Assembly (NCBI GenBank): GCA_027491155.1
Contig: JAIXWR010000046.1
Span: 62,001 to 126,000 of the forward strand
Reading direction: 5' to 3'
Source of the DNA: Verrucomicrobiaceae bacterium
GTDB lineage: Bacteria; Verrucomicrobiota; Verrucomicrobiia; Verrucomicrobiales; Akkermansiaceae
DNA: 64,000 bases
Below are positions 24,301-40,100 of this stretch, one piece after another. Position numbers and translations under genes: made by a program. The notes under the pieces were generated by a model. That model was not told the DNA's origin, made no database searches, and saw only the letters and a program-made list of their open reading frames with translations. Position 1 is the stretch's first letter. Every line of letters begins with the position of its first letter.

Positions 24301-26759
24301 GCTTCCAAACCAGCGGAACACAGACCAACGGAGCCCTCCGCAACGTCGCCGGTAACAACACCATCGCCGGCCAACTCCTCCTCACCACCGGCGCGGGCAG
24401 CACCCAGATCCTCAGCGACGGCGGCACGCTCAATCTAACCGGCGCGATCACCACCTCTCCCAGCGCCGGTGCCCGCACCCTCTTCCTCGGCGGCAGCGCC
24501 AACGGCATCACCAGCGGCGGCATCGCCGACAATTCCTCGAACGTGGTCAGCGTGACCAAGAACGGCACCGGCACCTGGGAAATCCGCGGCACCAACACCC
24601 ACAGCGGCCTGACCACCCTCAGCTCCGGCACCCTCGCTCTCACAGGCACGCTCGCCGGTCCGCTCACCGCCACCTCCGGCACCTTCGCCCCGCTCGGATC
24701 GCCCGCCGTCGGCGGCAATCTCGCCCTCCAATCCGCAGCGAAAATCCGCACCCGCATCAACGGCGGCACCCCCGGCACCCAATACGACCAACTGACCGCC
24801 GCCGCCAACGTCACCCTCGCCGGCACGCTCGAAGTCGTTTCCGCCCCCGGCCTCACTCCGGGCAGCAGCTTCACCCTGATCCAGAAGACCAGCCCCGGCG
24901 CGATCTCCGGCACCTTCAGCGGACTCCCGCAAAACGCGACTTTCGCCCAGGCCCCGAACTACGTCTGGCAGATCAGCTACACCGGCGGCGATGGCAACGA
25001 CGTCGTCCTCACCCTCGCCGCGATGACGTCGCTCGAAGCCTTCCGCTTCCAATACTTCGGCACCATCGCCAACTCCGGCAACGCCGCCGACAGCGCCGAC
25101 CCCGATGGAGACGGCCGCAACAACCTCGCCGAGTTCAACGCCGGGACGAACCCGCTCGAAGTCACCGCGCCCGACGTGGTCATCACCAGCCCCGCCGCCG
25201 AACCGGTCACCGTCGCAGCCCTAGCCGACACGCTCCATCTCAACGCCGCCATCCAGCAAAGCAGCGCCACCGCCCCGCTCTCCTGGGCTTGGGCGAAACT
25301 CTCCGGCCCCGGGACCGCGACCATCAGCCCATCTAACAGCGCAACAAGCACCGTCACCTTCGACACCGCCGGCACCTACGTCATCCAAGCCACCGCCACC
25401 CTCGGCACGACCACCGCCTCCGCCACTCGGACGGTCCTCGTCGCCGCCCCCGCGACCCTGACTTTCCGCCAGGGCGAGAACAGCTACTCCCACGCCGCCA
25501 CCTTCATCCGAGGCGACACCGCCACCTGGAACTCCGGCACCCGCGACCAGCTCCTCATCGGTCGCAACAGCAACTCCGGCATGCGCGGTCTCTTCGCCTT
25601 CGACCTCACCGGCGTCCCCGCCAACGCAACCGTCACCAGCGCGTCCTTTGACCTCTGGGCCGCCTCCGCCGGCAGCGGCACCATCAACTCCCTGCAACTC
25701 CGCCCGCTGCTCAAGGACTTCACCGAAGGCAGCGGCAACGGCAGCAACTCCACCAATGGCGCGAACACCGGCGCCGACTGGAACTCCCGCACCGGCCCCA
25801 CCACGGCCAATCTCTGGGGCACTGCGGGCGGCCAGAGCGGCACCGACTTCTCCGCCACCGTCATCGGCAGCCTGGCCGGCTTCGACACCGCCACCACCGC
25901 CGCCGGGACCCAGCACGCCTTCACGCTCGATCCCGCCTTCGTGACCGAAGCCAACGCCGCCCTCACCGCCGCCCGCCCGCTGCGATTCATCCTCACCATG
26001 GCGAACGACACCACCGCCGGCACCAGCGTCTTCGCCCGCTTCGCCTCGGACGACCACCCAACTCCCGCCTACCGCCCTCGCCTGACCCTCGGCTTCACCG
26101 CCAACCCCGCGCCCGTCATCACCACCGGCACCGCCCCCGCGGCCGCCAGCGGCTCGCCCACCGCTCTAGCAGGCAGCGCCAGCGGAGCCACCGCTACCAC
26201 CTGGACCCTCGTCTCCGGCACCGGCACCGCCACCTTCGCCGACTCGAACAACCCGGCCACCACCGTCACCTTCAGCCAGCCCGGCGCCTACACCCTCCGC
26301 CTGTTGTCCTCGAACGCCAGCGGCACCGTCTCCCGCACCCTCGCCGTCACCGCCACCGCGTCTAACAATCCCGCCGTCTTCGCCGACTGGCAGCAACTCA
26401 CCTGGCCCGGCCAAAGCAACCCCGCCATCATCGGCCCCGACGCCGACCCCGACGGTGACGGCCTCGACAACCTCACCGAGTGGGCCCTCCACCTCAACGC
26501 CACCGCCCCCGACGTCCACCAGCCCGCCTTCGCGAAGAACGGCAGCGTCCTCGACTTCACCTACACCCGCCGCAAGGTGGCACCCGGCGAAGCCACCTTC
26601 ACCGTCGAGTGGTCCGACACCCTCGCCGCCCCCTGGACCCCCGCCGCCAGCGATCCGCCGGTCTCCCTCGACGCCACCCGCGAGTCCGTCCGCACCACGA
26701 TTCCCGCCGGCCCGAACGGCCGCCGCTTCGTGCGGGTCCGCATCACTCCGTCGCCTTGA
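15339..26759 (+). CDS. 3,806-aa exported multidomain protein (LamG, FN3, DUF2341, PATR beta-helix, DNRLRE, C-terminal module)
   Basis: Signal peptide at 1-21. Residues ~22-605 are a Trp/Tyr-rich domain I do not recognise, possibly an alpha/alpha-toroid enzyme. Then follow a LamG domain (~680-920), FN3 (~935-1020), DUF2341 (~1035-1140), two further LamG-like domains to ~1565, a beta-sandwich and three FN3 domains (to ~1945), and a PATR beta-helix (~1950-2530). After a calcium-loop half-module (22959-23095) come a second PATR region (to ~3230), another half-module (25035-25165), a PKD-like domain, DNRLRE (~3370-3590), a PKD-like domain, and the C-terminal module from 26382. The internal half-modules look like old C-termini, suggesting fusion of several proteins. 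Surface-attached polysaccharide degradation or adhesion is inferred. The next gene starts 4 bases after the stop. Confidence 0.85.
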   Translation: MRLSPASLICLPLLSSPVHAQATYEQRHDAYFDDISGRRINTGQRDGPHRAGRTGFWTTQGKLQRGNESSGVWSNLSSTITDADGSGDAGGANGGFSGWPGMDTYLRWQHRFPQSIKDQYYTEYTTMPTYGNGSTPNQRIMWAAACKLACETWGVPAVTSVSNAANRYGDPTGKAYMMAICDRTVKYNFEERWAKHYLQYTLGPLRSIADLSNDPELVNRARMTWNWGWMDIASFSFKGRWAIPAGRGSMVQDGNSSDISEFGSWLMFEGTPRANPLDMDQSLLYTQPRIGQAHLVTQPPILPEMLEAATDRSKPFTRRGMARVHETQFATSHLTKDWALYSQLEADTTLNADGTLKIKDLNNGGVPSNDWSSERWAVMWDETGPAGLTMKAPTGYGWCQGCGLGPHEDIVQHEGTIAGIFNIPATSDWQYTRDSIPTNTTAVINDSATTGRLYLHYSKVLVAITRSDIGNFTWPPAAQTFCNKRGYAVECASLDEYPQSTAAARLAAFKADIEANPPDFSHVNDAVPRMIYTTRDGTVLDITYGEGGKINNDPVDYTSWPLHESPWARQDQMGNMWVFGKDRHLLWNYKNWTERSDYRPTATTSAPVTAAASVDIDLSTRVSDTETPAANLNYRITGSNNGSAVLLPDGKTARFTPAANLAGESNLTFTAGGEFPDQRFIFHYDYEQADPLAGGIVKDQSTNDRHATASVGGFASLTGEPDQPAALTSHDTQSLRVVSSNFGSAKLSRQIHPATLNFSNHDWTFATWFKRSSYADEDFLFYIGNSDGNSGNVDELQLFLPAQSKTLSLRHWTAANVLDVNLTTAPVVETGKWHHVAVQYDRTSFNTGVMKLFLDGKLVATTAPLTFALDQSGPVFIGGPAANTALSRNFNGWLDDTILARGELSTEEVNALASSTASHLGGVKLAQTVRVIASPLAPTSLTATASNNTIQLAWSATSGAAGYTVKRATSASGPFTTLASGITGTSYSDATAAFGTTYHYVVTASNSSSESTDSNPASAQLPATDPSIWNGGTMAAWARGARIAFPGYTNSETLSNIPLLVRLDATNVPGFSYSQLAFANGADLRFTDSTGTTELAYEIEKWDPAGTSLVWVRVPSLSANTSILAFWGNPAATASAQPNSLSGLALWLKADAITGLADGATLTTWNDSSTNARNATVLAGTPTFETSELNGQPVVRFPANGETSLQFPSLNTIRTVFWVVKETAPGTHFLLGDDNTYHFHRGSTAGNLWDAAYTSANVRNGTTKLNGTAVNGTTTPLGNGWKLVSVVTTGNCEASRISKDRSIAARSWDGDIAEVIIYDRALSANEELLVGGYLSQKYALPAAYSGAAPAYTVNGSAWTGGYTGVWHLNSTTVNDSTSVQQNTTSNATLTSPGKVASALVHNGTSQHAIIPHATELNLSNNYEISGWFKLAAADKPASGNYRSLFTKETDSNTRNWWLSINSDGKLWWKSSAGIDVTSPSDLADNQWHHFSAVHDGSTARLYLDGVEVATGSAPANEELTTWAVRLGSENSTRWFKGTLDEFRIANVKRSAAWVRAVYENIHNPAFIRIAPATPYAAALAPMLANLPATAVTSTAATLNGTLVSTGGSTTTVTIYHGPSDGGTTPANWAGSLNLGTRPVGNFGGAISGLPTGSIRYFRAFASNATGGTWAPVSSSFITPTAAPAGLAAIPTSGLVSLSWTATSGATSYQLKRSSTPGGPYTPVISGILGTTTSDPSTAVGTSYYYVLSASNAGGESANSAELAVTTLSAPSTLTATAGNNSVALSWSAVAGATSYTVKRATSPGGPFTTLASGIAGTSHNDATALNGTAYFYQLTALNGGYESERSYTATATPSASIAAPTGLAGAPVSTGANLTWNAVAGATHYRVKRSTTSGGPYTTIANNLLAPSHGDTGLTNGTTYFYVVSAFNGSIESANSAQISIVPAAPPTTFTTASAGNWSSATWTPQQPISAFATTIVFNNAGSISSNNNLGLLLANKLNLTNGAVNLTGDALFLAGSAPAVTSTANVAHNLGGILTLDAATTFNIPSNTTTVSGVINGNGGVTKTGAGNLVLSGANSNTGPTTVSAGVLNLRHSDSLGSSNITVANGASLDLQNNITLTGHRATLTGQGSGTGGVLRNVSGNNTWAGEITAVAVSGVTRISSDAGTLTLSGEINQDNGSSDQLVFQGNGNTVVTGAIDGSSDVTRSSSGSGVVSLLGENTYTGQTLVNGGILEINSLNSLIGEEGDEEVALSASSLGLPTNVANATINLGNTSTTATLRFIGATTKTDRVLNLAGTSGGAVIEQNGSGKLTFLSPLTATGAGTKTLTLTGTSEGLLAGAIVDNSTTNKTNLVKSGSGLWSLGGANAYTGTTNVNTGTLLLQNASIAAGGNVTVATSATFGGSGTVTPNSTVNGNLALTPGTLTFSGTLAFGASARVKWNLTENSATTGFGQVSAPAANVTTGAVVDVILNPADGLADFADPFWSSPRNWPVLSALSRSGTFTLGTISADSAGHPVSGYGSFAIEQTTSGVNLTWTPLSPIEQWRFTHFGVTTATGNAADSADPDNDGVNNLTEFNNNTLPTDATSLPAFVWHQPLSGNWSTATNWNLGLAPTSNPATKLEFLSGLTTLTAGTITPTNDNAGTFSLNSLRLAGSGSGSINVNPGGGPLRFHANGELPPQLLLNAFSTNFSYNLANAIDLTADLTIDGANTGNFTLGGPITGSGGITRIGTNSRLILGGSNSYTGPTVLSAGVTAITTANNLGAPTAPLTLDGGTLQILGSSLSSLSALNRPVTFTPDKAVTLDISTSTHSVTADLLLDQASGGLTKNGSGTLVLSQSNNYTGPTTLNAGTLAISATTQLGDPAAPLVFNGGNLRVTGTGLANLSDLARPITFTATRYVGIDVADAAHVFAVDLPLDQTTGSFTKLGVGILELAAANTFTGNITASAGVLRIFQASALGGATKDVFCTSGTARIELDGTSGDITLPATTRFQTSGTQTNGALRNVAGNNTIAGQLLLTTGAGSTQILSDGGTLNLTGAITTSPSAGARTLFLGGSANGITSGGIADNSSNVVSVTKNGTGTWEIRGTNTHSGLTTLSSGTLALTGTLAGPLTATSGTFAPLGSPAVGGNLALQSAAKIRTRINGGTPGTQYDQLTAAANVTLAGTLEVVSAPGLTPGSSFTLIQKTSPGAISGTFSGLPQNATFAQAPNYVWQISYTGGDGNDVVLTLAAMTSLEAFRFQYFGTIANSGNAADSADPDGDGRNNLAEFNAGTNPLEVTAPDVVITSPAAEPVTVAALADTLHLNAAIQQSSATAPLSWAWAKLSGPGTATISPSNSATSTVTFDTAGTYVIQATATLGTTTASATRTVLVAAPATLTFRQGENSYSHAATFIRGDTATWNSGTRDQLLIGRNSNSGMRGLFAFDLTGVPANATVTSASFDLWAASAGSGTINSLQLRPLLKDFTEGSGNGSNSTNGANTGADWNSRTGPTTANLWGTAGGQSGTDFSATVIGSLAGFDTATTAAGTQHAFTLDPAFVTEANAALTAARPLRFILTMANDTTAGTSVFARFASDDHPTPAYRPRLTLGFTANPAPVITTGTAPAAASGSPTALAGSASGATATTWTLVSGTGTATFADSNNPATTVTFSQPGAYTLRLLSSNASGTVSRTLAVTATASNNPAVFADWQQLTWPGQSNPAIIGPDADPDGDGLDNLTEWALHLNATAPDVHQPAFAKNGSVLDFTYTRRKVAPGEATFTVEWSDTLAAPWTPAASDPPVSLDATRESVRTTIPAGPNGRRFVRVRITPSP

Positions 26760-26763
26760 TCCG

Positions 26764-29700
26764 ATGCGCCTCGCGATCCTCCTCGCCGCTCTTGCCGCGA
26801 CCGGCCTCGCCGGCGCCCAAGTGCTGGTCAACCAAAGCGGCTACAACACCTCGGGCAGCAAACGTTTCACCGCCCCGCTCGCTCCGGCCGGCACGCCCTT
26901 CTCCGTGGTGACCGATCCCGGCGACAGCGTCGTGTTCAGCGGCACGCTCGAAGCCACCGGCGACGGCTCGGTCGGCGACTTCAGCGCCTTCCAACCCGCC
27001 GCCACCGGCAACTACCGCATCGTCCTCGCCACCACGCCCTCCCCCCAGCAGTCCCACGTCTTCGGCATCGGCCCCTTTTGGATCGAACGCGTCAGCTACC
27101 GCCGCATGGTCCAGTTCTTCATCGACAGCCGCAGCGGCTTCGGCGACGCGACCTCGTGGAATGTCGCCGGCGGCAAGAACAGCTCCGGCATCGCCTGGCG
27201 CGACTCCCACCAGTTCTCCTTCGAGCTGCGCACGCTCATCCAGTGGTACGCCGCCAACCCCGACGCCTTCGGCCCCGACCGCATGCCGGTCGAAGGCAGC
27301 TACCTCGGCCTCCGCAACACGTTGCCCGCCGACACCCCGGAGATCGTCCGCCTCATCCACTGGGGCGTGGACATCTACCTGCGGGGAAATCTCAACCACA
27401 CCCTGATCAAGGAGGAGCTCGCCTACTTCCTCTACTACTACCCGCTCTATCAGAAGTGGATCCCGCTCTCGCTCTACCATGAAGCCCGCGACTACCTCTT
27501 CCCGCTGTGGACGAACACCGCGCGCGACCGCTGGAACTGGTACGACATCGCCCACACCGCGGACCTGCTCCAGACCTACACCGTGATGGGCGGCACCAAG
27601 GGCTCGCTGCCGCCCGGCCACTCCATCGTGCCGAACCTGCTGATGCACCAGGTCGCCCTGCGCGAAGGCCGCGGCGACGCCGCCCTCTATCTAACAACAG
27701 CACGCAACCAGGCCCAGTGGATCGTCAACAACCTCAGCGCGACCGATCCCCTCGTCACCAAGGGCCAGAGGATGTCCGAGCACATCCTCGTGCCCGCCCT
27801 CGCCGAGTTCATGCTGCGCGATCCCGCGACACCCGTCACCGGCATCGACACCTGGCTTGCGAACTGGACCGACACCGTCATCGCCCGCTCCGCCAACCTC
27901 TGGGATTTCCGGAAATACTCCGACACCATCTGGACGCCCGAGAACGTCCCCGGCGGCCACCCGTGGTGGAACGAGCCCGGCAACATCGCCGGCTTCCCCG
28001 CCTCCGCCCTCGCCGCCGCCACCCGCATCACCGATCCCGCGAAAATCGCGCGCCTCCGCCAGATCGCCACCTCCCAGCTCGACCAGATCTTCGGCCGCAA
28101 TCCCCACAACCGCCACTTCTGCTTCCGCGCCACCCAGCCGACCCATGGCTTCGAAGGCGTGGAAACCGGCTGGTTCTCCCAACACATCGGCGGCCTCGGC
28201 ATCCTGGAAAACGCCCGCGGCGTGCTCGACGCCTCCGCCAAGCACCCCGCCTTCCCCTACAACCCCACCGTCTCCCCCGGCTACGTCGAGGGCTGGGTCG
28301 CCTTCAACTCCGCCTGGAACGCCGGCATGACCTGGGCCGCCCGCGACCGCTCGTCGATCACCTTCCTCGGCAACGGCGCGCCCAACGGCACGATCGAGAT
28401 CGAACTCCGCGCCCCCCTCAATTTCAACCGCGGCCTCGCCGAATCCGCCACCGTTCGCGTCACCAGCCGGAATGGCGATGCGGAAGACCTCGTGCTCACC
28501 GAGACCTCCGCCGACAGCTCCGTCTTCCGCGGCCAGATGGCGCTGGAGAACGCCGCCACCCCGCAGCCCGATGACGACTCCCTGGAAGCCCCGGCCGGCA
28601 CGCCGCTGACCGCTAGCTACGGCCACGACATCTTCGCCCGCAGCGCCACCGCCAACGCCGCCGATGTCGGCTCCCTGCCGCTGGTCATCGTCACCCCGAC
28701 GCTCCCGCTTGCACGCGTCGGCGTCGCCTACCCGCCCTTCGCCCTCAACAGCGCCCATGGCGATGGCGCGCCTCAGTGGCAGCTCCTCTCGGGCTCGCTG
28801 CCCGCCGGCATGGAAATCACCACCGCCGGCATCCTCCAAGGCACGCCCACCGTTTCAGGCGTCTTCAACCCCGTCTTCCGAGTCGTGGATGGCAGCGAAC
28901 AAGCCGACAAAGCCCTGGCGCTCTCCTGCTCCGGACTTCAGATCACCACCACCACGCTGCCAGCCGCCACCAGCGGCCAGGCCTATCAGCAGAACCTTCT
29001 AACAGCCGGCGGTCTGGGTGCCGTGACCTGGTCCATCGCCTCCGGTTCCGTCCTGCCCGGCGGTCTGACGTTGGATCCCGCCGGCCAGCTCTCCGGCACG
29101 CCCACGAACGCCGGGAACCACACGTTTTCTCTCACAGCAACCGATGCCGCCGGCGCCACCGCCACCACCACCTGCCAACTCCTCGTCGCCGGCCCGCCCG
29201 CCGGGGTGATCTTCACCGACAGCTTCGACAACGGCACCGGTGCCTGGTTCAAGGCCGCGCCCGTGACCGGTGATTCACTCTCCAACAACTCCGGCGCGCT
29301 CGTCTGGTCGGAAAACGGCACCTCGATGTCCGAGTCCATCGGCCGCTCCTTCCCCGGCGTGAACCTCGGAGTCGGCCAGACCCTGCGGCTGGCCTTCGAC
29401 TACCGCCAGACCGGCACCCAGCCCGCCACCCACATCATCCGCGCGGGATTCTATCAGCTCGCCAATCCCATCACCGCCCACAACTGGGCCGGCGCCAACA
29501 CCATCGGCGCCTGGAAAGGCTACGGCACTTTCGTCCGAGACAACAGCACCAGCACCCAAACCCACGTCGCCCGGGTCGAAAGCGGCAGCAGCACTTCAAC
29601 CACCGCCGGACCGAACAACGGCACCGCCGGCGCCTACACCGACATCGGCAGCACGATCCTCCAACACAACCTCGCCGACGACGGCAGCGTGACCTACCGC

Positions 29701-30315
29701 TTCGTCTTCGAAGCCACCCTCGTCTCCGCCACCCGCATGGACACCCTGCTCACCGTCACCAGCGGCAGCGGCCCATCCGCGATCACCCATTTCTCCATCC
29801 CCGGCACCCAAACCACGGGCACCGTTCACACGAGCTTCAACACCGTCGTGCTCAAGCAATCCGGCGGCAGCAACATGCCCGCCACCTACGACAACCTGAG
29901 CGTCGAACTGATCGGCGGCCTCGATCCCGCCGTCTTCGCCGACTGGCAGCAACTCATCTGGCCCGGCGTCACCGACACCAACACCACCGGCCCCGACGCC
30001 GATCCGGATGGCGACGGCCGCGGCAATTTCCTCGAATGGGCGCTTCACCTCGACGCCACCCGCCCGGACCCCTTCCAACCCGGCCTCGTGCGCGACGGCG
30101 ATTTCCTGCTCTTCACCTATCAACGCCGCACGACCGCCCCCGGCGAAGCAAGCTGGCGCGTCGAATGGTCCGACACCCTGGGCAACGACTGGACCGACCT
30201 CGACGTCGTCACCGCCCCGCCGAACCCGATCGACGCCACCCGCGAATCCGTCACCGCCAGCGTCCCCGCCGGCACCAACGGCCGCCGTTTTGTCCGCGTA
30301 AGGATCACACACTGA
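26764..30315 (+). CDS. Exported GH9-like glycoside hydrolase with Ig-like domains and C-terminal module
   Basis: The 1,183-aa product has a signal peptide (1-18) and a CelD_N-type Ig domain (VLVNQSGYNTSGSKRF, GPFWIERVSYRRM), the arrangement that precedes GH9 catalytic domains. The catalytic-like six-hairpin region (~109-530) contains WNWYDIAHTADLLQTY, DQIFGRNPHNRHFCFRA and EGWVAFNSAWNAGMTW. The last resembles the GH9 acid block NE-V-x-x-x-Y-N-A-G. The usual DAGD nucleophile motif is not seen, so activity is uncertain. Then come an Ig-like domain, two He_PIG domains (~636-800), a jelly-roll domain (~815-1055) and the C-terminal module from 29938. The ATG is 4 bases after the preceding stop. 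Confidence 0.8.
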   Translation: MRLAILLAALAATGLAGAQVLVNQSGYNTSGSKRFTAPLAPAGTPFSVVTDPGDSVVFSGTLEATGDGSVGDFSAFQPAATGNYRIVLATTPSPQQSHVFGIGPFWIERVSYRRMVQFFIDSRSGFGDATSWNVAGGKNSSGIAWRDSHQFSFELRTLIQWYAANPDAFGPDRMPVEGSYLGLRNTLPADTPEIVRLIHWGVDIYLRGNLNHTLIKEELAYFLYYYPLYQKWIPLSLYHEARDYLFPLWTNTARDRWNWYDIAHTADLLQTYTVMGGTKGSLPPGHSIVPNLLMHQVALREGRGDAALYLTTARNQAQWIVNNLSATDPLVTKGQRMSEHILVPALAEFMLRDPATPVTGIDTWLANWTDTVIARSANLWDFRKYSDTIWTPENVPGGHPWWNEPGNIAGFPASALAAATRITDPAKIARLRQIATSQLDQIFGRNPHNRHFCFRATQPTHGFEGVETGWFSQHIGGLGILENARGVLDASAKHPAFPYNPTVSPGYVEGWVAFNSAWNAGMTWAARDRSSITFLGNGAPNGTIEIELRAPLNFNRGLAESATVRVTSRNGDAEDLVLTETSADSSVFRGQMALENAATPQPDDDSLEAPAGTPLTASYGHDIFARSATANAADVGSLPLVIVTPTLPLARVGVAYPPFALNSAHGDGAPQWQLLSGSLPAGMEITTAGILQGTPTVSGVFNPVFRVVDGSEQADKALALSCSGLQITTTTLPAATSGQAYQQNLLTAGGLGAVTWSIASGSVLPGGLTLDPAGQLSGTPTNAGNHTFSLTATDAAGATATTTCQLLVAGPPAGVIFTDSFDNGTGAWFKAAPVTGDSLSNNSGALVWSENGTSMSESIGRSFPGVNLGVGQTLRLAFDYRQTGTQPATHIIRAGFYQLANPITAHNWAGANTIGAWKGYGTFVRDNSTSTQTHVARVESGSSTSTTAGPNNGTAGAYTDIGSTILQHNLADDGSVTYRFVFEATLVSATRMDTLLTVTSGSGPSAITHFSIPGTQTTGTVHTSFNTVVLKQSGGSNMPATYDNLSVELIGGLDPAVFADWQQLIWPGVTDTNTTGPDADPDGDGRGNFLEWALHLDATRPDPFQPGLVRDGDFLLFTYQRRTTAPGEASWRVEWSDTLGNDWTDLDVVTAPPNPIDATRESVTASVPAGTNGRRFVRVRITH

Positions 30316-30325
30316 AGCCATCAAC

Positions 30326-33300
30326 ATGATTCGACTGCTCCAGTTCATCCGGCGTGTCCGTTTCCCACTCACGGGAATGATCATCTCGCTCGCAGGTTGC
30401 CCCTCCGCGCTCCACGCCGCGGGTTTCGACCAGCAATCCTTCACGCCCTCCCACGACGCCTTCATCCAGCGCGGATCACCCACCGCCACCGCCGGCACCG
30501 GCGACGAGTTCCTCGTCAAACGCGACTCCGCCACCGTCTCCGGAGGCTCCGACCGCCTTGCCTACCTCCGCTTCAGTACCGCAGCGCCCTACGCCGTCGT
30601 CGATAGCGCCAGCCTCTTCCTCACCCTCAACAACTACTCGGGCGACGGCACCACGCCTTTCACCTTCGAATTGTTCGGCCTGCCCGACGGCCACCCGAAC
30701 GAGTCCTTCAACGAAACCCTCCTTACCTTCAACACCGCCACCAACGCCACCACCACGATGCCCGGCAGCCTGAACCCGGCCGGGCTCACCTCACTTGGCA
30801 CCTTCACGCCATCGGTAGCCTCCGGCGGCACCCGCATCGAGTTCTCCACCACCGCCCTGCGCGACTTCATCGCCGCCAGCGGAAACTCCGAAATCACCTT
30901 CCTCCTCTTCCGCCAGACCCCGAACGCCGGCCTGCCCACCTACTTCGCCAGCAGCGAGGACGCCTCCTCCAACAACCGCCCGACCCTCCTCATCCGCACC
31001 GCCAGCGATTCCCTCGCCGTCGCGAGCACCACCGCCAGCTCGACTCTAACAGGCTCCGCGGTAACGAACGCCACCGACAGCGACTTCACCACCCGCTGGA
31101 TCGCCAACGCCGACACCTCCACGACCAAATCCTGGATCACCCTCGACCTCGGCTCGCCGCAAACCGTCAACCGCCTCAACTTCATCGCCTACCAGCACGG
31201 CCGCTCCTTCAAGCTGGAATCCTCGGACGACAACGCCACCTGGAGCCTCATCACCACCAATTTCCGCAGCGGCGTCGGCACCGGCGTCAACCCGCTGCTC
31301 CAGGACACCAACCGCTATTTCCAACCGCGCACCGCCCGCTACTTCCGCCTGAGCTCGCTCACCTCCACCAGCGGCAACAGCCACTCGCTCTGGGAGATCA
31401 AGCTCTATAACGATCCCGCCGCCGCCCCCACTCTCGCCCGCCACGCCTCGCTCACCACCTCGGTCGCGGCACTTCCTAACAGCAGCAACGCGGAGCAGCT
31501 CAAGCGCGTCGTGCTCGAACTCGCCCTCGAACGCGCCCAGGCCTGCCTCAACATCGGCGACTTCGCCGCCGCCAACCTGCTGCTCGACGACGCCCAGAAC
31601 AACCTCGCCACCGATCCCGCCACCATGGCCGCCGTCGCCACCGGCGTCACCCAGGTCCGCGCCATCCGACCGCTGATCGAGACCACCCCCGCCACCAATC
31701 CCTACCTGAAACGCATCAACGACGGCGCGGCGCTCTATCTAACAACCACCGATCTCCCCTGGGAAAAGAACACGCCCGAGCTCAACGTCTTCGCCGACTT
31801 CAACCTCGCCCGCAGCACCGCCGCCGACATGGACGCGCTGCTCTGGGTCTTCGCCCACCCGAACAGCGGCCTGCGCCACCACCCGGAAATTCTCCGCCGC
31901 CTGCTCCGCCGCACCTACGCCTACCTCGACGCCATCAACGTCCACGGCCCGCTCCTCCCCGCCGGCCAGCTCGCCAGTTTCTACGACGACTTCGCCAGCG
32001 CCCCCGCCTCCATCGTCTTCCGCGAGTTCCAGCTCCTCTACCCCGGCCTCATCCCCGCGAACTCCAACACCGAGTGGGACAACGCGATGACCACCGCCGC
32101 CAACAACCTCTGGGCGGCTTTCGGAAACCGCACCGCCTCCTGGGTCAACACCGACGTCGCCATCGCCGTGGAACTCCACAACCTCGGCATGAAAACCGGC
32201 CGCCAGGAACTCATCGACAAGGGCCGCTACTTCATCGACGACGTCCTGACAAGCGGCCGCATGTTCGCCGACGGCGCGGTCGGCTACATCGGCACCCAGA
32301 ACGAGGCCGGCGGCTACCAGGGCACCGTCGAGTCCTACGTCAACCGCTACTACCAGATCACCGGCCGTCCCCAGGCACTCGAGATCCTTCAAAAAATGGA
32401 ATGGTACGGCCCCATCAACGGCCGCATGATCGACTGGTGGACCTCGCCCTCCTGGAAGCACGCGTGGAATTTCATCAACGGCTCCGGCCAGACCGGCGAG
32501 TCCACCAACGGCAAAAACCCCTACACCCGCGCCAGCCTCGACGCCTCCATCGCCGCTCCGGCCACCGCGACCAACTGGACCGGCAGCGTCTCGCAGGTCG
32601 GATGGTATGAAAGCGGCACTCCCGCCCTCACCCGCCCGGACACCTACACCGTCTTCGACCGCAACCTCCAAGGCCCGCGCTCCTGGCAGGGCGGCCTTTG
32701 GAACACCACCGGCACCCTCCGCGCCATCAACGACAACGAGTCCGGCCACCACACCATCATGGGCGCCCAGGTCATGGACCCGGACCCGAACTTCCGCGTC
32801 AACGCCTCGGTCATGGGCGTCTTCCCCCGCATCCGCACCGCCAGCGGCGGCTCGCGCGACGCCGACGGCACCTTCGCCGAAACCCGCCACGCCTGGCTCA
32901 CTTCCAAACTAACAGGAGCCACCACCGTCACCCCCTCTTTCACCGCCATCGGCGCCTCGCACAAGATCCACGTCTTCGGCAGCTCCACCAAGGGCACCGA
33001 GCACGATTGGACCGCCCGCCAGGTCTGGCTCAACCTGCCCGACCGCAGCATCGGCCTGTTGGACCTTTCCCCGAACGCGAACCTCAACGCCTACGAAGTT
33101 CAGGGCGCGATCCGCCTCGGTCACGGCGGAACCGCCTACAGCCCCGCAAAGACCCTCGTCTCCACCGGCACCAACGCCTGGAGCTATGGCAAGCTCCGCA
33201 TCAAACTCCACGATCACAATTACGCCGAAGTCGTCCCGGAAGAATACGAGTTCCGCGTCGCCAACGCCCCGATCACCGAGATCACCCTGCGCGACCAGCC

Positions 33301-35266
33301 CGGCGGCGGATCGAACAACACCCCGATCCCCTACACCGCCGGCACCCGTTGGAAATACATCGCCGAAGTCCGCCCCGACACCACCACGGATGAAGTCACC
33401 GTCACCGAAGTCGCCACTCCCGGCGGCCTGATCGGCCTCGACGTCGAGAATCCTTCCAACAACCGGCGTCACCGCGTGCTCTACAATCCCGGCAGCGCCG
33501 CGGTCGTCCACACCCCCGCGCTGAACTGGCCCGGCTCGCTGCGCATCCACCGCAGCGGCCAGCATTTCCGCCCGGACTGGGTGCCCGATCCCACCGGCCC
33601 GCCCGTCGCCGAGTATCTCACAAACGGCCAGTCCCTCACCCTCGATCCCAAGGCCCACGTGGTCATCGAGCTGGATCCCTTTCCCACCCCCACCGTCTCG
33701 ATCACCGGCCCCACCGAGTCCGCCACGCAGCCGGACACCGCCCTGAAACTCCGCTGCACCGCCGCCATCGACACCCACGGCGCCCTTGGTACTCCCAGCA
33801 TCGCCTGGTCGCAAGTCTCCGGCCCCGGCACAGTGAGCTTCGACAACCCGTCCGCCCTCGATACACGCGCATCCTTCTCCGCCGCCGGCATCTATCGGAT
33901 CCAATGCGCCGCCACCCTCAACGGCATCACCGGCACCGCCGCGCGCACCGTGAACGTCGACACGCCCACCGAAATCATTCTCCGCCAGAACGGCGCCGGC
34001 TACTCCCAGGAAACCACCACCGTCCGCGCCGACAACCCCACCTGGAACGCCGGCGCCCGCAACCAATTCCTCGTCGGCCGCATCGGCACCGGCAACAGCG
34101 CCGCCCGCGGGCTGCTGTCCTTCGATCTAACAGGCATCCCGTCCGGCACCACCATCGGGTCCGCGCAACTCGAACTCGTCACCAGCAGCGATGCTGGCAC
34201 GGGCACCGTTTCCCAACTCGAACTCCGCACCCTCACCGCCGGCTTCACCGAAGGCAGCGGCAGCGGTACAAGCTCCAGCCCCGCCGATCCGAACACCAAC
34301 TCCGGCGCGAACTGGAATCGCCGCACGGACGCCACCGCCAATCTCACCTGGACCAACCCCGGCGGATCCCTCGGCACCACCGTGCTCGCCACCCTTCCCG
34401 GCTTCAACGCGAACACCACCACCAGTTCGCCCCGCTCCTTCGCCAGCACTCCCGACTTCATCGCCGCGGTGCAGTCCTCGCTCGCATCCGGACGCCTCAA
34501 TCTCACCGTCGTCTCACCGCTCAGCGAAGCCATCGCCGCCGCGAACTTCACCCGCATCCACTCGGACGACGCCGCCGTCGAAACCAACCGCCCGACCCTC
34601 CGGCTCCTCTGCGAAACGAATGCGCTCCCCGCCATCTCACCAGGCAGCGCACCCGCCGCCGTCACCGGTCTCCCCGCCCCGCTCGCCGCCACCGTGACCG
34701 CGGCGCAAAGCTCCCTCTGGTCGCTCGTCTCCGGCCCCGGCACCGCGACCTTCACCAACCCGGCAAGCCCCGCCACCTCCGTCACCTTCAGCCAACCCGG
34801 CGGCTATTTTCTCCAGCTCACGTCTTCTAACAGCTCCGGCGAAACCAGCCGGTCGCTCGTGGTCGAAGTTCTCACACGGCAGCAGGACTGGCGGTTCACC
34901 CACTTCGGCACCACGCAGGACAGCGGCACCGCCGCCGACAGCTTCGACGCGAACGGCGATGGCGAAGTGAACCTGCTGGAATTCGCCACCGGGCAGAATC
35001 CACACGCCGCAACGATCGCCGCCCCCACCCTCGTCAAAGCCGGCAACACCCTCGAATTCACCTACACCCGCTCCCTCGCCGCGCTCGCCGACGGCATTCT
35101 TTTCACCGTCGAGTGGAGCGACTCGCTCGCCGGCTCAAGCTGGTCCGACGCCGGAGTCACCGAGCTGCCCCTCGGCGACAACGGAACCTTGCAGTCCGTG
35201 AAAGCCAGCGTCGCGGCAGGGTCGGGCGGACGACGTTTCCTCCATCTCAAAGTCTCGAAGCCATGA
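30326..35266 (+). CDS. 1,646-aa exported protein: DNRLRE and F5/8-type domains around an unrecognised catalytic-looking core
   Basis: The N-terminal signal has an ambiguous end: SLAGC is a lipobox (Cys25), but cleavage after ALHA is also possible. DNRLRE domain at ~40-235, then an F5/8-type C (CBM32-like) domain at ~235-365 (ATDSDFTTRWIAN, SWITLDLGSPQTVNRL). The core at ~400-1115 has a helical half with FADGAVGYIGTQNEAGGYQG and MIDWWTSPSWKHAWN, and a beta half with VMGVFPRIRTAS and NLPDRSIGLLDL. That layout is typical of alpha/alpha-toroid plus supersandwich polysaccharide lyases, but I cannot assign a family. PKD-like, second DNRLRE (~1210-1430) and PKD-like domains precede the C-terminal module from 34880. 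The TGA overlaps the next ATG. Confidence 0.78.
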   Translation: MIRLLQFIRRVRFPLTGMIISLAGCPSALHAAGFDQQSFTPSHDAFIQRGSPTATAGTGDEFLVKRDSATVSGGSDRLAYLRFSTAAPYAVVDSASLFLTLNNYSGDGTTPFTFELFGLPDGHPNESFNETLLTFNTATNATTTMPGSLNPAGLTSLGTFTPSVASGGTRIEFSTTALRDFIAASGNSEITFLLFRQTPNAGLPTYFASSEDASSNNRPTLLIRTASDSLAVASTTASSTLTGSAVTNATDSDFTTRWIANADTSTTKSWITLDLGSPQTVNRLNFIAYQHGRSFKLESSDDNATWSLITTNFRSGVGTGVNPLLQDTNRYFQPRTARYFRLSSLTSTSGNSHSLWEIKLYNDPAAAPTLARHASLTTSVAALPNSSNAEQLKRVVLELALERAQACLNIGDFAAANLLLDDAQNNLATDPATMAAVATGVTQVRAIRPLIETTPATNPYLKRINDGAALYLTTTDLPWEKNTPELNVFADFNLARSTAADMDALLWVFAHPNSGLRHHPEILRRLLRRTYAYLDAINVHGPLLPAGQLASFYDDFASAPASIVFREFQLLYPGLIPANSNTEWDNAMTTAANNLWAAFGNRTASWVNTDVAIAVELHNLGMKTGRQELIDKGRYFIDDVLTSGRMFADGAVGYIGTQNEAGGYQGTVESYVNRYYQITGRPQALEILQKMEWYGPINGRMIDWWTSPSWKHAWNFINGSGQTGESTNGKNPYTRASLDASIAAPATATNWTGSVSQVGWYESGTPALTRPDTYTVFDRNLQGPRSWQGGLWNTTGTLRAINDNESGHHTIMGAQVMDPDPNFRVNASVMGVFPRIRTASGGSRDADGTFAETRHAWLTSKLTGATTVTPSFTAIGASHKIHVFGSSTKGTEHDWTARQVWLNLPDRSIGLLDLSPNANLNAYEVQGAIRLGHGGTAYSPAKTLVSTGTNAWSYGKLRIKLHDHNYAEVVPEEYEFRVANAPITEITLRDQPGGGSNNTPIPYTAGTRWKYIAEVRPDTTTDEVTVTEVATPGGLIGLDVENPSNNRRHRVLYNPGSAAVVHTPALNWPGSLRIHRSGQHFRPDWVPDPTGPPVAEYLTNGQSLTLDPKAHVVIELDPFPTPTVSITGPTESATQPDTALKLRCTAAIDTHGALGTPSIAWSQVSGPGTVSFDNPSALDTRASFSAAGIYRIQCAATLNGITGTAARTVNVDTPTEIILRQNGAGYSQETTTVRADNPTWNAGARNQFLVGRIGTGNSAARGLLSFDLTGIPSGTTIGSAQLELVTSSDAGTGTVSQLELRTLTAGFTEGSGSGTSSSPADPNTNSGANWNRRTDATANLTWTNPGGSLGTTVLATLPGFNANTTTSSPRSFASTPDFIAAVQSSLASGRLNLTVVSPLSEAIAAANFTRIHSDDAAVETNRPTLRLLCETNALPAISPGSAPAAVTGLPAPLAATVTAAQSSLWSLVSGPGTATFTNPASPATSVTFSQPGGYFLQLTSSNSSGETSRSLVVEVLTRQQDWRFTHFGTTQDSGTAADSFDANGDGEVNLLEFATGQNPHAATIAAPTLVKAGNTLEFTYTRSLAALADGILFTVEWSDSLAGSSWSDAGVTELPLGDNGTLQSVKASVAAGSGGRRFLHLKVSKP

Positions 35267-37134
35267 CGTTCGCATTTCTCGCACCCGCCCCGCTTCGCCC
35301 TGCCTTGCGCGCGGCCTTGCTGGCCTTCGCCGCGCTCTTCGCGATGCCCCATGCAGGAGCGCAAGAGAAGACCACCACCCCGAACCCGCGGCTCACCGGC
35401 AAGACCTATGCGGAGCGTGCCCTCGCCTGTTCGAGATACTTTGCGACCGCCACTCCCCGCAGCACCACTTTCCCGAAGGACGGCATGCCCTTCCTCGCCG
35501 CGCGCTTGCAGCACGGTATCGACACCCCGGGCACGCTGGCGGCACTCGACAAGATGCTCGACGCCACCCTGAAGGCGAGGCCGGACCCCTTCAACCTCCA
35601 CGCGGTGATGCACTGTTATCTGGTGCACAAGGAGAAGTTCACCCCTGCCATGGCGGCGAAGGTGAAGCGGCTGGCGGCAAGCTGGAAGTATTCCAAGCCG
35701 ATCGGCGTCTCCTTGAACTACGAACTCATGCGCGATGGCGCGGGCTGGCTGGCCGCCCAGGAGTGGCCGGACCTCGTGGATGCCGCCGGCAACGATGCGG
35801 CGAAGATCCAGAAGAACTGCGCGGGCTGGCTCTGGCGGATCTGGCGCGAGACGACCGATCGCAACGCCAGCGAATACGACGCCCCCGTCTACTACGGCAC
35901 CGACTTCGCCCCCACCCGGATGATCGCCGAGTTCAGCCGGGATCCCGCGATGAGCAAGGCCGCGGCGATGACGCTCGACTTCATGCTCATCCACACCGGC
36001 GCGCACTGGCATCGCGGCTATCACATCAGCAGCGCCGGGCGCGGAAAATACTGGGGCTCGCTCAACCTCAGCCCGCACGCCGCTTCGGCGACCAGCAGCA
36101 TGGCCTGGCTGCTCTACGGCAGCGACCAGCCCTTCAACATCAATTCCGCGCCCCAGTCCTACTGGCTGGCCCATCCCGGGCGCGTCTTCCAACCGGACTT
36201 CCTCAGCACCTGGCAGGCCGCGCTTCCGGACACCCGCACCGTCTTTGCCAACCACATCTGGCCGAGCCACAAGCAGATCGTCCGCAAGATGGCCTGGTTC
36301 ACCACCGGCTACGGCCTCGCCAGCCAGCGCGACGACGGCAGCCCCTTCGATTCCTTCCTCTTCAAGGAATGCCGGCGCACGATGCTCAAATGGCACAGCC
36401 CGCATCCCGCCAGCACCTTCACCATCATTCAGGAAAACCGTCGCCGCCCCAGCGAGAAGATCCGCAACGCCTTTGCCTACGGCGAGAACCCCTACTGCCA
36501 GACGTTGCAATATGAAGGCACCCTCATCGGCGTCCACGACGTGCCGACCGACTACGGCTTCTGGACCACCCGCGCGCCGTTCACCACCACCGGAGCCATC
36601 GTCAAGCGCACCGAGCGCGACGGCTGGGTCCTTTGCCACGGCGGCAGCATGCTCTTCGCCTTCCGTTTCACCGAGCCTGCAACGTGGGACAAGCCCGACA
36701 AACGCGAGAAGCTCGACCTCCTGCGCTGCGACGCCCAGCGCGGCGGCTGGATCCTTGAAACCAGTCCCCTCGCGCCCTTCGCGGGCGGCGGCCCCGATGC
36801 CGAGCTGGCCAATTTCGCCGATGCGCTGAGGACCAGGACAAGGTTCACCGCAAGCACCGGGGCATCCCCGCCGAAGCTGACCTTCACCAACCTCCGCGGA
36901 CGCACCCTCAGTCTCCGCTGGAAGCCGGCCGAACCGATGGTAAAGGACGAATGCCAGGTCGATGGTAAGCCGGTGCGCTACGACCTCTTCCCGCTCCTGA
37001 AAACCAACGGCGTCCATCATCCCAACGGCGGAACGCTCTCGCTCCAGGCCGGCAAGCGGATTCGGAGGTATGATTTCAAGAAGTGGACCATCACCGAATC
37101 CACCGGCACCTTGTCCATGCCCGCCAAGAACTAG
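35263..37134 (+). CDS. Exported 623-aa protein of unrecognised family, lyase-like architecture
   Basis: The ATG overlaps the previous TGA (ATGA), and a signal peptide occupies about residues 1-34. The mature protein has a helical first half (LDATLKARPDPFNLHAVMHC, LLYGSDQPFN) with conserved-looking His and Tyr residues (HWHRGYHISSAGRGKYWGSL). A beta-rich second half follows from ~400 (YCQTLQYEGTLIGVHDVP, GGSMLFAFRF). An alpha/alpha barrel followed by beta-sandwich is the plan of several polysaccharide lyases, which is the only functional hint. It lacks DNRLRE, PATR and the C-terminal module of its neighbours. A longer frame from 35113 is within the previous gene and rejected. Confidence 0.75.
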   Translation: MTFAFLAPAPLRPALRAALLAFAALFAMPHAGAQEKTTTPNPRLTGKTYAERALACSRYFATATPRSTTFPKDGMPFLAARLQHGIDTPGTLAALDKMLDATLKARPDPFNLHAVMHCYLVHKEKFTPAMAAKVKRLAASWKYSKPIGVSLNYELMRDGAGWLAAQEWPDLVDAAGNDAAKIQKNCAGWLWRIWRETTDRNASEYDAPVYYGTDFAPTRMIAEFSRDPAMSKAAAMTLDFMLIHTGAHWHRGYHISSAGRGKYWGSLNLSPHAASATSSMAWLLYGSDQPFNINSAPQSYWLAHPGRVFQPDFLSTWQAALPDTRTVFANHIWPSHKQIVRKMAWFTTGYGLASQRDDGSPFDSFLFKECRRTMLKWHSPHPASTFTIIQENRRRPSEKIRNAFAYGENPYCQTLQYEGTLIGVHDVPTDYGFWTTRAPFTTTGAIVKRTERDGWVLCHGGSMLFAFRFTEPATWDKPDKREKLDLLRCDAQRGGWILETSPLAPFAGGGPDAELANFADALRTRTRFTASTGASPPKLTFTNLRGRTLSLRWKPAEPMVKDECQVDGKPVRYDLFPLLKTNGVHHPNGGTLSLQAGKRIRRYDFKKWTITESTGTLSMPAKN

Positions 37135-37176
37135 CCCGAAGCACGGCGATCCATCTTGCCTGATCTCACTGCACCC

Positions 37177-40100
37177 ATGTCACGCGCTGCCACCCTCTCC
37201 GCTTCCTTTCTCGCTGCCGCTTCCGCCGTGGCGCAGATCCCGTCTTTCCCCGGTGCCGAAGGCTACGGCTCCCACGCGACCGGCGGGCGCGGCGGGGATG
37301 TCTACATCGTGACCAACCGCAACGCCTCGGGTGCCGGCTCGTTCGCGGATGCGGTCAATACGGCACCGGTCGCCGGACGCACCATCGTCTTCGCGGTCAG
37401 CGGCCACATCCGCCTGCCCAGCGGCAGCGGCGGCGGGCTTTCGATCTCGAAGTCGAAGATCACCGTCGCCGGGCAAACCGCCCCGGGCGACGGCGTGTGC
37501 TTCTGGAACAACACGATGAACCTCACGGGCGACGACCTCGTGATCCGCAACGTCCGCTGGCGCTACGGCAAATCCCCCGCGGGCGGCGACGCGGTCGACA
37601 TCAGCGGCTCGCAGCGCATCATCCTCGACCACTGCGAGGTGATGTTCGCCACCGACGAGAACCTTTCCTCGTTCGGCACCCCGCCGGAGTTCTTCACCTT
37701 CCAATGGAGCATCAACGCGTGGGGCCTCAGCGGGCACTCCGCCGGCGGCCTGTGGGACGTGGACCACGCGACCTCCCACCACTGCCTGTGGGCGAACAAC
37801 CACACGCGCAATCCGAAGCTCATCGCGCCCTCCGTCTTCGATTGGGCGAACAACGTGACCTTCGGTTGGAACAACGGCTTCAACCTTGCCGAGAGTCCGA
37901 CGGGGGGAACCGGATACGTCCACCGGGTCAATGTCCGCGGCTCCACCTTCGTCCACGGCGCCTCGACCAACTCGGCCCTCTACGGCGGCGGAACCAACTC
38001 CGACGGCTCGAACAAGTTCAAGCTGCACGTCGCCGACAGCGCGCTCGACGGGAACAACAACGGCGTGCTCGACGTCTCCCGCACGAACTACCAGATGGTT
38101 TCCTCCACGACCTACGACCCGGTCGCCACCGCATGGCCGCAGACGATCGACGGCGTGACCGGCGGCACCGCCGTCGGCGCCCCGGTGGCGCTCGACCCGC
38201 GGATCACGGCTTACAAGAAAGTCCTCTCGAAAGTCGGCGCGGTCCGCATGGAATACGACGCCGGACGCCCCCTGCGGGACGAGATCAGCCAGCTCTGCGT
38301 GACCCGCACGGCGGCTCTCCAGCGCGGCATCATCAGCGATCCGCTGGAGCTGGGACTCAGCACCGGCACCGCCTTCGCCGCGCTCAATTCCACCACCCCG
38401 CCGGCCGACACCGACAAGGACGGGATGCCGGATGTCTGGGAAAACTCGCTCGGCATGAACGCGGCGCTGGCGAGCCACAACACGGTCTTCCCGGGCAGCG
38501 GCGGCTTCATCACCGGCACCACCCTCTTCCCGCCGAACACCCCGGCCGGCTACACTCATCTCGAGGAGTATCTCCATTTCAAGGCCCAGCCCCACGCGAC
38601 ACTCCCGATGAACACGAGCGGAGCCCCGAGCTTCCTCGACATCGACCTCTCCCGCTACACCGGCGGCTTCACCGCCAGCCCGGTCTTCACCGCGACCAAC
38701 GCCAACGGCGGCAGCGTCACGCAAAGCGGGGACGGCGGGAAGATCGCGCGCTTCACCCCGGCGCTGGATTCGTTCGGCCGCGCCTGGTTCGACTTCACGG
38801 TGACCGACTCCGCCGGCAGCACCTGGACCCAGCGCTTCCATGTCCTCGTCAGCAACACCACCTTGCCACGCGATCTCGTCTGGGTCGGAAACGGAACCAC
38901 CAACCCCTGGGACGGCACCAGCAGCATGTGGTCGCTCGCCGGCGAAGCGACGGACTTCAACAACGGCGACTTCGTGAGCCTCGACGACAGCGGGTCGGCA
39001 AGTCCCGCGCTCGCCTTGAGCGGCACCCTCCAGCCCGGCGCGGTGCTGGTGGATGCCTCGGCCAAGGACTACACCCTCACCGGCGGCAACTTCGCCGGTC
39101 CGATGGCGTTGACCAAGCGCGGCAGCGGCACGCTCACCCTGCGCTCGAACCACGCGCACACCGGCGGCACCATCATCGAAGACGGCGCGCTCGTGCTCGG
39201 CCTCGCAGGCACCACTTCTAACAGCACAGGCAGCGTCGGCAGCGGCCCGCTCACGCTGCTCGGCGACTCGACGGTCACCAATGCCTGGTTCGGCACGCAG
39301 CTCCCGCTGAGCGCGCCGATCAGCGTGCCGGAGGGCAGCGAACCCGTCATCCACACCGGCCGCAACATCCGCTTGAGCGGCGCGCTCACCGGCAGCGGCA
39401 CCCTCACCCTGCTGAACCAGACGGTCCCGGGAAACACCTTCGAACTCACCGGCCCCTGGGCCGCCTTCGCCGGCACGCTCCGCATCCAATACGCGGGCAC
39501 CAACCCCGGCATCCGGACCATCTTCAACGGCGGCTCCTTCAACGGCTTCACCGGCGCGACGCTCGATCTCGGCGGCGGCAACAGCATCAACCCGGTCACG
39601 AACTCCGGCGGCAACACCTTCAACATCGGCGCGCTCACCGGCACCGCGGCGGATGCGATCCTGAACGGCGGCACTGCCGGCGCGCCGATCTACACCATCG
39701 GCGCTCTCAACACCTCCACCACCTTCGCGGGAAAGCTCCAAGGCAACGCAAGGCTGACCAAAACCGGCACCGGCACCCTCACCCTGACCGGTGCCAGCAC
39801 CCACAGCGGCGCGACCGCCGTAAATCTCGGTGCCCTCGTCGTGAACGGCAGCTTCGGCACCAGCCCGGTCACCGTGGCCGGCGGCGCGACGCTCGGCGGC
39901 AGCGCGACGCTCGCGGGCACGGTGGGCATCTCAAGCGGCGGCATCCTCGATCCCGAGGGCACGCTCTCCACCGGTCCCCTGACCAGCACCGCGGCGACCT
40001 TCCGCACGGCCCTGTCCAACTCCCCCGGCGGCGCGAACGATCGGGTCGCCGTCACCGGCAATGCCACGCTCACCGGCGCGCACACGGTGGAAATCACCGC

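Follow-up and report, generated by a model that had tools for sequence, protein, structure and literature searches.

A candidate polysaccharide lyase family of Verrucomicrobiota with likeness to toroid lyases in its helical half

Known lyases of the toroid kind hold their active-site Asn and Tyr at spacings of 53 to 63 residues, PL40 (245/305) included, as given in PMC12088678 and PMC12915356. The table in PMC12088678 lists chondroitin AC lyase with Asn/His/Tyr at 183/233/242 and heparinase III with Asn/Tyr at 240/294; in that table some enzymes carry Arg, Glu or Asp instead of the Asn, and every toroid lyase has a His. PL35, PL39 and PL40, which join a toroid to an antiparallel beta part, use a His of the beta domain according to PMC12915356, where this residue is described in PL39 and PL40 as being helped by Asp, His and Mn2+. 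Among the modules found with lyases, CBM96 was founded on an alginate-binding module, and DNRLRE domains have been noted in alginate, hyaluronate and pectate lyases (PMC9971899). PMC8857213 portrays Verrucomicrobiota as specialised in consuming polysaccharides rich in fucose and rhamnose, with gene clusters around GH29.

The DNA analysed here (the window) is a stretch of 64,000 nucleotides from a Verrucomicrobiaceae bacterium, and it encodes a multidomain protein of 1,646 residues (Table 1) whose signal-like N-terminal stretch, judged by inspection, suggests secretion. The flanking domains are assigned to CBM96 by two models that both exceed their curated cut-offs, Pfam PF24517 (CBM96; E 9.2e-12, 45.5 bits against a cut-off of 26) and NCBIfam NF033679 (DNRLRE; E 1.7e-19, 70.5 bits against a cut-off of 34), each matching in two stretches; the Pfam model for K319L-like PKD domains also matches in two stretches. 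The core lies where a sequence-only reading of this DNA had placed it, bracketed by two DNRLRE domains and, more closely, by an F5/8-type and a PKD-like domain, and the three blocks named in that reading are all present in the ORF as given. By inspection, the protein ends in a tail with the motif DANGDGE-NL-EFAT-QNPHAAT (window ~34883-35263), which is found again at ~41600-41991, at the end of the protein encoded at 37156-41994; this common tail is likely to serve in anchoring or secretion.

Table 1. Features of the core gene and its upstream neighbour; positions are those of the window.
Feature	Residues	Position	Strand	Basis
Upstream neighbour		26455..30315	+	CelD_N (cellulase N-terminal Ig) E 1.2e-6; GH9 E 0.0027, below cut-off
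Whole gene, 1,646-aa multidomain protein		30326..35266	+	ORF
First CBM96/DNRLRE domain	37-224	30434..30997	+	PF24517, NF033679
F5/8 type C domain	235-357	31028..31396	+	PF00754 E 1.1e-12
Helical half of core	387-771	31484..32638	+	hhalign to PL8 and heparinase II/III toroids
Asn608, candidate carboxylate neutraliser	608	32147..32149	+	25/26 rows; aligned to Asn of L043 and L063
Tyr654, one residue before the PL8 His place, candidate replacement	654	32285..32287	+	25/26 rows; role inferred
Block GGYQGTVESYVNRYY	662-676	32309-32353	+	
Tyr664, candidate catalytic acid/base	664	32315..32317	+	25/26 rows; aligned to Tyr of L043 and L063
Block IDWWTSPSWKHAWN	702-715	32429-32470	+	
Lys711 of the W-K block	711	32456..32458	+	26/26 rows
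Beta half of core, with D-R-N-x-x-G-P-R block	772-1122	32639..33691	+	conservation
Block FDRNLQGPRSWQGG	777-790	32654-32695	+	
PKD-like domain	~1123-1211	33692..33958	+	K319L-like PKD (Pfam); limits by inspection
Second DNRLRE domain	~1213-1412	33962..34561	+	second stretch of NF033679/PF24517; limits by inspection
Second PKD domain	1443-1515	34652..34870	+	PF22352 above cut-off; PF00801 just below cut-off

Searched alone (31484-33760, aa 387-1145, the unassigned core proper spanning about aa 387-1122), the core gave zero matches in Pfam, NCBIfam and PHROGs at E values up to 1, and the Pfam scan of the whole protein returned a single sub-threshold match touching it (HisK_N, aa 380-414, E 0.25). 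Against PDB sequences, the single core gave chance matches only (best E 0.39), and a ten-row profile of its family gave nothing meaningful, its hits being an antibody chain and, at E 0.041 in the beta half, a prolyl oligopeptidase; viral contigs (three alignments) and plasmids held no relative of the core. The uncharacterised core that had been proposed is real by these searches, and the clear match to a PL or GH family that would have spoken against its novelty is absent from Pfam, NCBIfam, PHROGs and the PDB sequences. Moreover, the core is coding and under purifying selection: a relative, L002, is 89% identical, with differences distributed 58/35/167 over the three positions of 759 codons and with dN at 0.060 and dS at 0.366.

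Using the core alone as query, matches were found in 8 of 288 genomes of the phylum, its own included, three of them with weak matches only (E 0.002-0.007). The ten-row profile gave matches in 22 of 384 genomes of the class and long matches in 17 (own genome included in both counts), with G317, G494, G535, G547 and G553, which hold short partial matches only, being left out of the latter. We then counted residues over 26 rows, comprising the window and 25 further cores above 200 bits, after dropping sequence repeats and matches below 200 bits (the long, divergent L040 at 172.5 bits, and cut-off copies). Six of these rows make up one group, of which five were compared and show 83-87% identity, so the counts are not over independent sequences; other rows are only 17-28% identical to the window core. 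In the tree, the window joins G432, a genome of its own genus (100/100), and then G215 (100/100), the three belonging to an eight-member clade. Four family members or fragments occur in a single stretch of G432. At L005:172-3843 (+), a Gfo/Idh/MocA oxidoreductase runs in frame and with no stop into a signal-peptide-like stretch followed by a family core, a reading which may reflect a fusion, or a matter of assembly or of annotation.

That the core belongs to an existing CAZy PL family, for instance a recent high-numbered one beyond the sequence reach of Pfam, NCBIfam and solved structures, is unlikely, if still to be taken seriously. Several recent PL families have no Pfam models, and the core was judged unclassified by Pfam, NCBIfam, PHROGs and PDB sequences. 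Numbering of alginate lyase families reaches PL44 in PMC13274419. Against such membership, the core has no NCBIfam name and its ten-row profile has no meaningful match in the PDB, which includes PL5, 8, 12, 15, 17, 21, 23, 35, 38 and 39 enzymes according to the table in PMC12088678. Furthermore, no paper on such a family was found in the literature on PL37 and PL44, nor any description of the core family in the literature within reach, which did not extend to CAZy and most subscription papers.

We compared the 26-row family by profile-profile alignment (hhalign) with reference sets of PL8 (n=20, from PF08124 matches) and heparinase II/III toroids (n=14), and with control sets of GH88 (n=14) and GlcNAc-2-epimerase (n=12). 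The family matched PL8 with a probability of 84.8% (E 6.6e-6, score 59.6) and Hepar_II_III_N with 69.8% (E 4.1e-5, score 52.5), as against 0.2% for GH88 and 0.1% for GlcNAc-2-epimerase, and the helical half alone gave 87.5%, 66.0% and, for GlcNAc-2-epimerase, 0.2%. By comparison, the PL8 and heparinase II/III sets reached 2.0% against each other. The reversed family profile gave 0.0 (PL8) and 0.1 (Hepar_II_III_N), and 60 column shuffles gave maxima of 0.5% and 0.3%, with score maxima of 23.9 and 21.2. When the window clade was removed, the values were 74.8% for PL8 and 70.0% for Hepar_II_III_N; the window clade alone (3 rows) gave no signal (1.6% and 0.6%), and the toroid assignment consequently rests on the wider family. 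A lyase of the toroid kind, as suggested from the sequence, is borne out to this extent for the helical half.

This likeness extends to two other groups, each of which was picked up by a search with the core family's own profile. The L030/L032/L034/L041/L042 toroid group, which has no Pfam family, matches the core family with 97.8% over 259 columns; its Asn, Tyr and Lys align with those of the core family, and it differs in carrying, in 4 of 5 rows by alignment, a His in an E-H stretch near the PL8 place. Against the PDB, this bridging group gave the alginate lyase AlgL17 at a non-significant E of 0.11. Most of its rows show N..SHH or N..AHH and E-H..Y motifs, closer to an Asn-His-Tyr plan. 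The second group, L031/L033, matches the family with 90.7% over 95 columns. Its Pfam likenesses, all below cut-off, are mixed (pectic acid lyase, squalene-hopene cyclase and GlcNAc-2-epimerase), so that a resemblance over this stretch is not peculiar to lyases, and a PDB search with L033 gave nothing significant, terpene cyclases appearing at E 0.016 or worse. Toroid likeness by itself is therefore no proof of a lyase, and the residue pattern is the stronger point.

In all three hhalign modes, Asn608 and Tyr664 align to Asn277 and Tyr336 of the PL8 protein L043 and to Asn237 and Tyr291 of the heparinase-type protein L063, pairs that are catalytic there; both residues are likewise candidates for catalysis in the core family. 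Their spacing of 56 compares with 59 in L043, whose His is residue 327 and whose Asn-His spacing is 50, both spacings being those of chondroitin AC lyase, and with 54 in L063, as in heparinase III; for PL35, PL39 and PL40 the range is 53-60 in PMC12915356 and PMC12088678. Counting spacings against the published numbers, the catalytic Tyr of the PL8 motif is its second Tyr, the one that aligns with Tyr664. The place of the PL8 His, nine residues before this Tyr, is Ile655 in the window, and no conserved His stands there among the 26 rows (I 12, L 4, V 3, T 2, H 2, N 2, Y 1). Indeed, no His is conserved anywhere in the family, the best column holding 18 of 26; this is the position directly after Tyr664, where L063 likewise has a His and the window has Gln. 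The earlier statement that a PL8 Asn-His-Tyr context is missing accordingly stands for the His but not for the Asn and Tyr, which are both present by profile alignment.

Beyond the three candidate residues, Asp778 (26/26 rows) and Arg785 (25/26) are conserved in the beta-half block. The single row that departs from the pattern, L027, has lost Asn608, Tyr654 and Tyr664 together (to V, A and L) and kept the Lys, Asp and Arg, its match ending at profile position 619 of 728. A single natural example, it offers no more than a hint that the three residues function together. L027:127-2334 (-) is possibly a natural inactive paralogue.

The likeness to PL8 and to heparinase II/III (PL12, PL21 and kin) is thus one of the alignable toroid half with its Asn and Tyr, and other features set the core family apart from both. 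At E values up to 1, the core and eight relatives have no match to PF08124, PF02278 or PF02884 for the former, nor to PF16889 or PF07940 for the latter. The beta half of the core family could not be aligned with PL8. Heparinase II/III enzymes have a beta-domain His; the beta half of the core family has no conserved His (best columns 15/26 and 13/26) and cannot be aligned to the heparinase domain, so that the place itself is not comparable. PL35, PL39 and PL40 share the two-part plan with the core, as far as the latter can be inferred; the core family has neither a conserved His corresponding to their beta-domain His nor, with the ten-row profile, a PDB sequence match.

The beta half alone scored 0.1% or less in hhalign against all five sets tried, PL8 and heparinase included. 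An AlphaFold2 model of the window core with L002 (pLDDT 29.5) shows 16 helices within the first 356 residues of the core and no strand ahead of residue 512, a hint at best of a helical-then-beta order. Of the proposed succession of a helical and a beta half, the first part is upheld by the profile matches to toroids, and the second, which found no independent support, may be beta in fold; the supersandwich type of plan, also suggested from the sequence, finds no backing in the hhalign comparison or in this model.

To place the family in its genomic context, we collected neighbourhoods for 16 regions from 12 genomes and picked 105 neighbour proteins, each 200-1,100 aa long, which come from 13 of the regions and 10 of the genomes, excluding family members and the regions L109, L112 and L114; 101 were scanned. 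The 25 commonest of 92 families include GH29 fucosidases (6), periplasmic-binding-protein-like proteins (6), Gfo/Idh/MocA oxidoreductases (5), GH43 (4), sodium-solute symporters (4), NANM-like proteins (4), SDR (3), GH3 (2), sulfatases (2) and RraA-like proteins (2). A GH29 gene lies less than 8 kb from a family member in at least G215, G439, G210 and G227; with 6 to 44 GH29 genes per genome in these four, among the matches listed, we claim no enrichment. In the genus of the window, the upstream neighbour of the core gene has an 85% identical counterpart beside L002, in a G432 cluster with a GH106 rhamnosidase, a GH3, an FAD oxidoreductase and a GH16 multidomain protein.

KduI and GH88, tried as pathway markers for the core family, failed as such. 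Present in 12 and 8 of 19 genomes, respectively, they were found near no family member, lying on other contigs throughout except in G536, where both are ~2.9 Mb away, a comparison limited by short draft contigs. In the genome from which the window comes, KduI is absent, a single GH88 lies on a different contig from the core gene, and GH29 is represented by two weak hits among the matches listed; the toroid models of PL8 and heparinase found nothing there.

The gene following the core gene (35113-37134, +), called as 673 aa and 621 aa long if started at 35269, is matched by neither Pfam nor NCBIfam. Its relatives, many of them weak, occur in 14 of 145 phylum genomes, its own included, and its own genome holds three more matches. 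The protein encoded at 37156-41994 (+) shows likeness to PelZ-like pectate lyase over aa 11-284 (E 4e-17, well short of the model's cut-off for whole proteins); autotransporter-type repeats come after it. Elsewhere, a large neighbour of ~1,100 aa recurs (L105:7692-11129, L106:13371-16769 and L113:7999-11304), 55% identical between L105 and L106 and ~34%, in part, to L113; the L105 protein has no Pfam match.

This context also bears on the idea that the toroid and its Asn/Tyr site serve another reaction, that of a polymer C5-epimerase, as in dermatan sulfate epimerase, or of a hydrolase. PMC8006597 describes human DS-epimerase 1 as remarkably similar to bacterial proteins, and the neighbourhoods, with no KduI or GH88 near members and with many hydrolases and Gfo/Idh/MocA oxidoreductases, would be compatible with such a role. 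However, the multidomain build with CBM96 and F5/8C, the degradation-type neighbourhoods, the Asn and Tyr at lyase spacing and the lack of a match to GH88 and GlcNAc-2-epimerase toroids all argue against it, and we consider it quite improbable. A non-catalytic carbohydrate-binding or structural toroid is more doubtful than either alternative, for while the one row of 26 without all three candidate residues implies that the scaffold can persist without them, the other 25 keep all three, even at 17-28% identity to the window.

Taken together, these results make it probable, if far from assured, that the core is a secreted alpha/alpha-toroid polysaccharide lyase of a family of its own, which would act on an acidic polysaccharide bound by the DNRLRE and F5/8C modules and have its putative centre at Asn608, Tyr664 and Tyr654. 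It would form a candidate new PL family, related to PL8 and the heparinase families but, by the tests made, a member of neither. Besides the profile matches and the residue pattern, the lyase reading is favoured by the alginate-binding founder module of CBM96 and by the nearby GH29, GH43, GH3, sulfatases, symporters and, in G432, GH106; the missing conserved His, the unmatched beta half, the lack of signal from the window clade alone, the low pLDDT of the model, the lack of nearby KduI or GH88 and the L031/L033 match speak against it. In such a lyase, the DNRLRE and F5/8C modules would bind the acidic polysaccharide, Asn608 in the toroid cleft would neutralise the carboxylate of a uronic acid, Tyr664 would act as acid/base in beta-elimination, Tyr654, next to the PL8 His place, might be the partner base or a helper, and Arg785 and Lys711 may assist chain binding. 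The target would probably be a mucilage or exopolysaccharide that contains uronic acids and is rich in fucose and rhamnose. More tentatively, and as a possibility that we would not yet call probable, this may be a new Verrucomicrobiota PL family in which a second Tyr replaces the His (Asn-Tyr-Tyr), with an unseen beta-half sequence, acting on the uronic acids of algal or bacterial mucilage rich in fucose and rhamnose.

Overall, nameless proteins in the degradation clusters of Verrucomicrobiota conceal part of the chemistry of fucose/rhamnose polysaccharides, and a recurring lyase-like family that lacks the customary His offers a concrete candidate for the cleavage of uronic acids in such polymers. 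The core family is, moreover, a test of how far the mechanism of toroid lyases varies.
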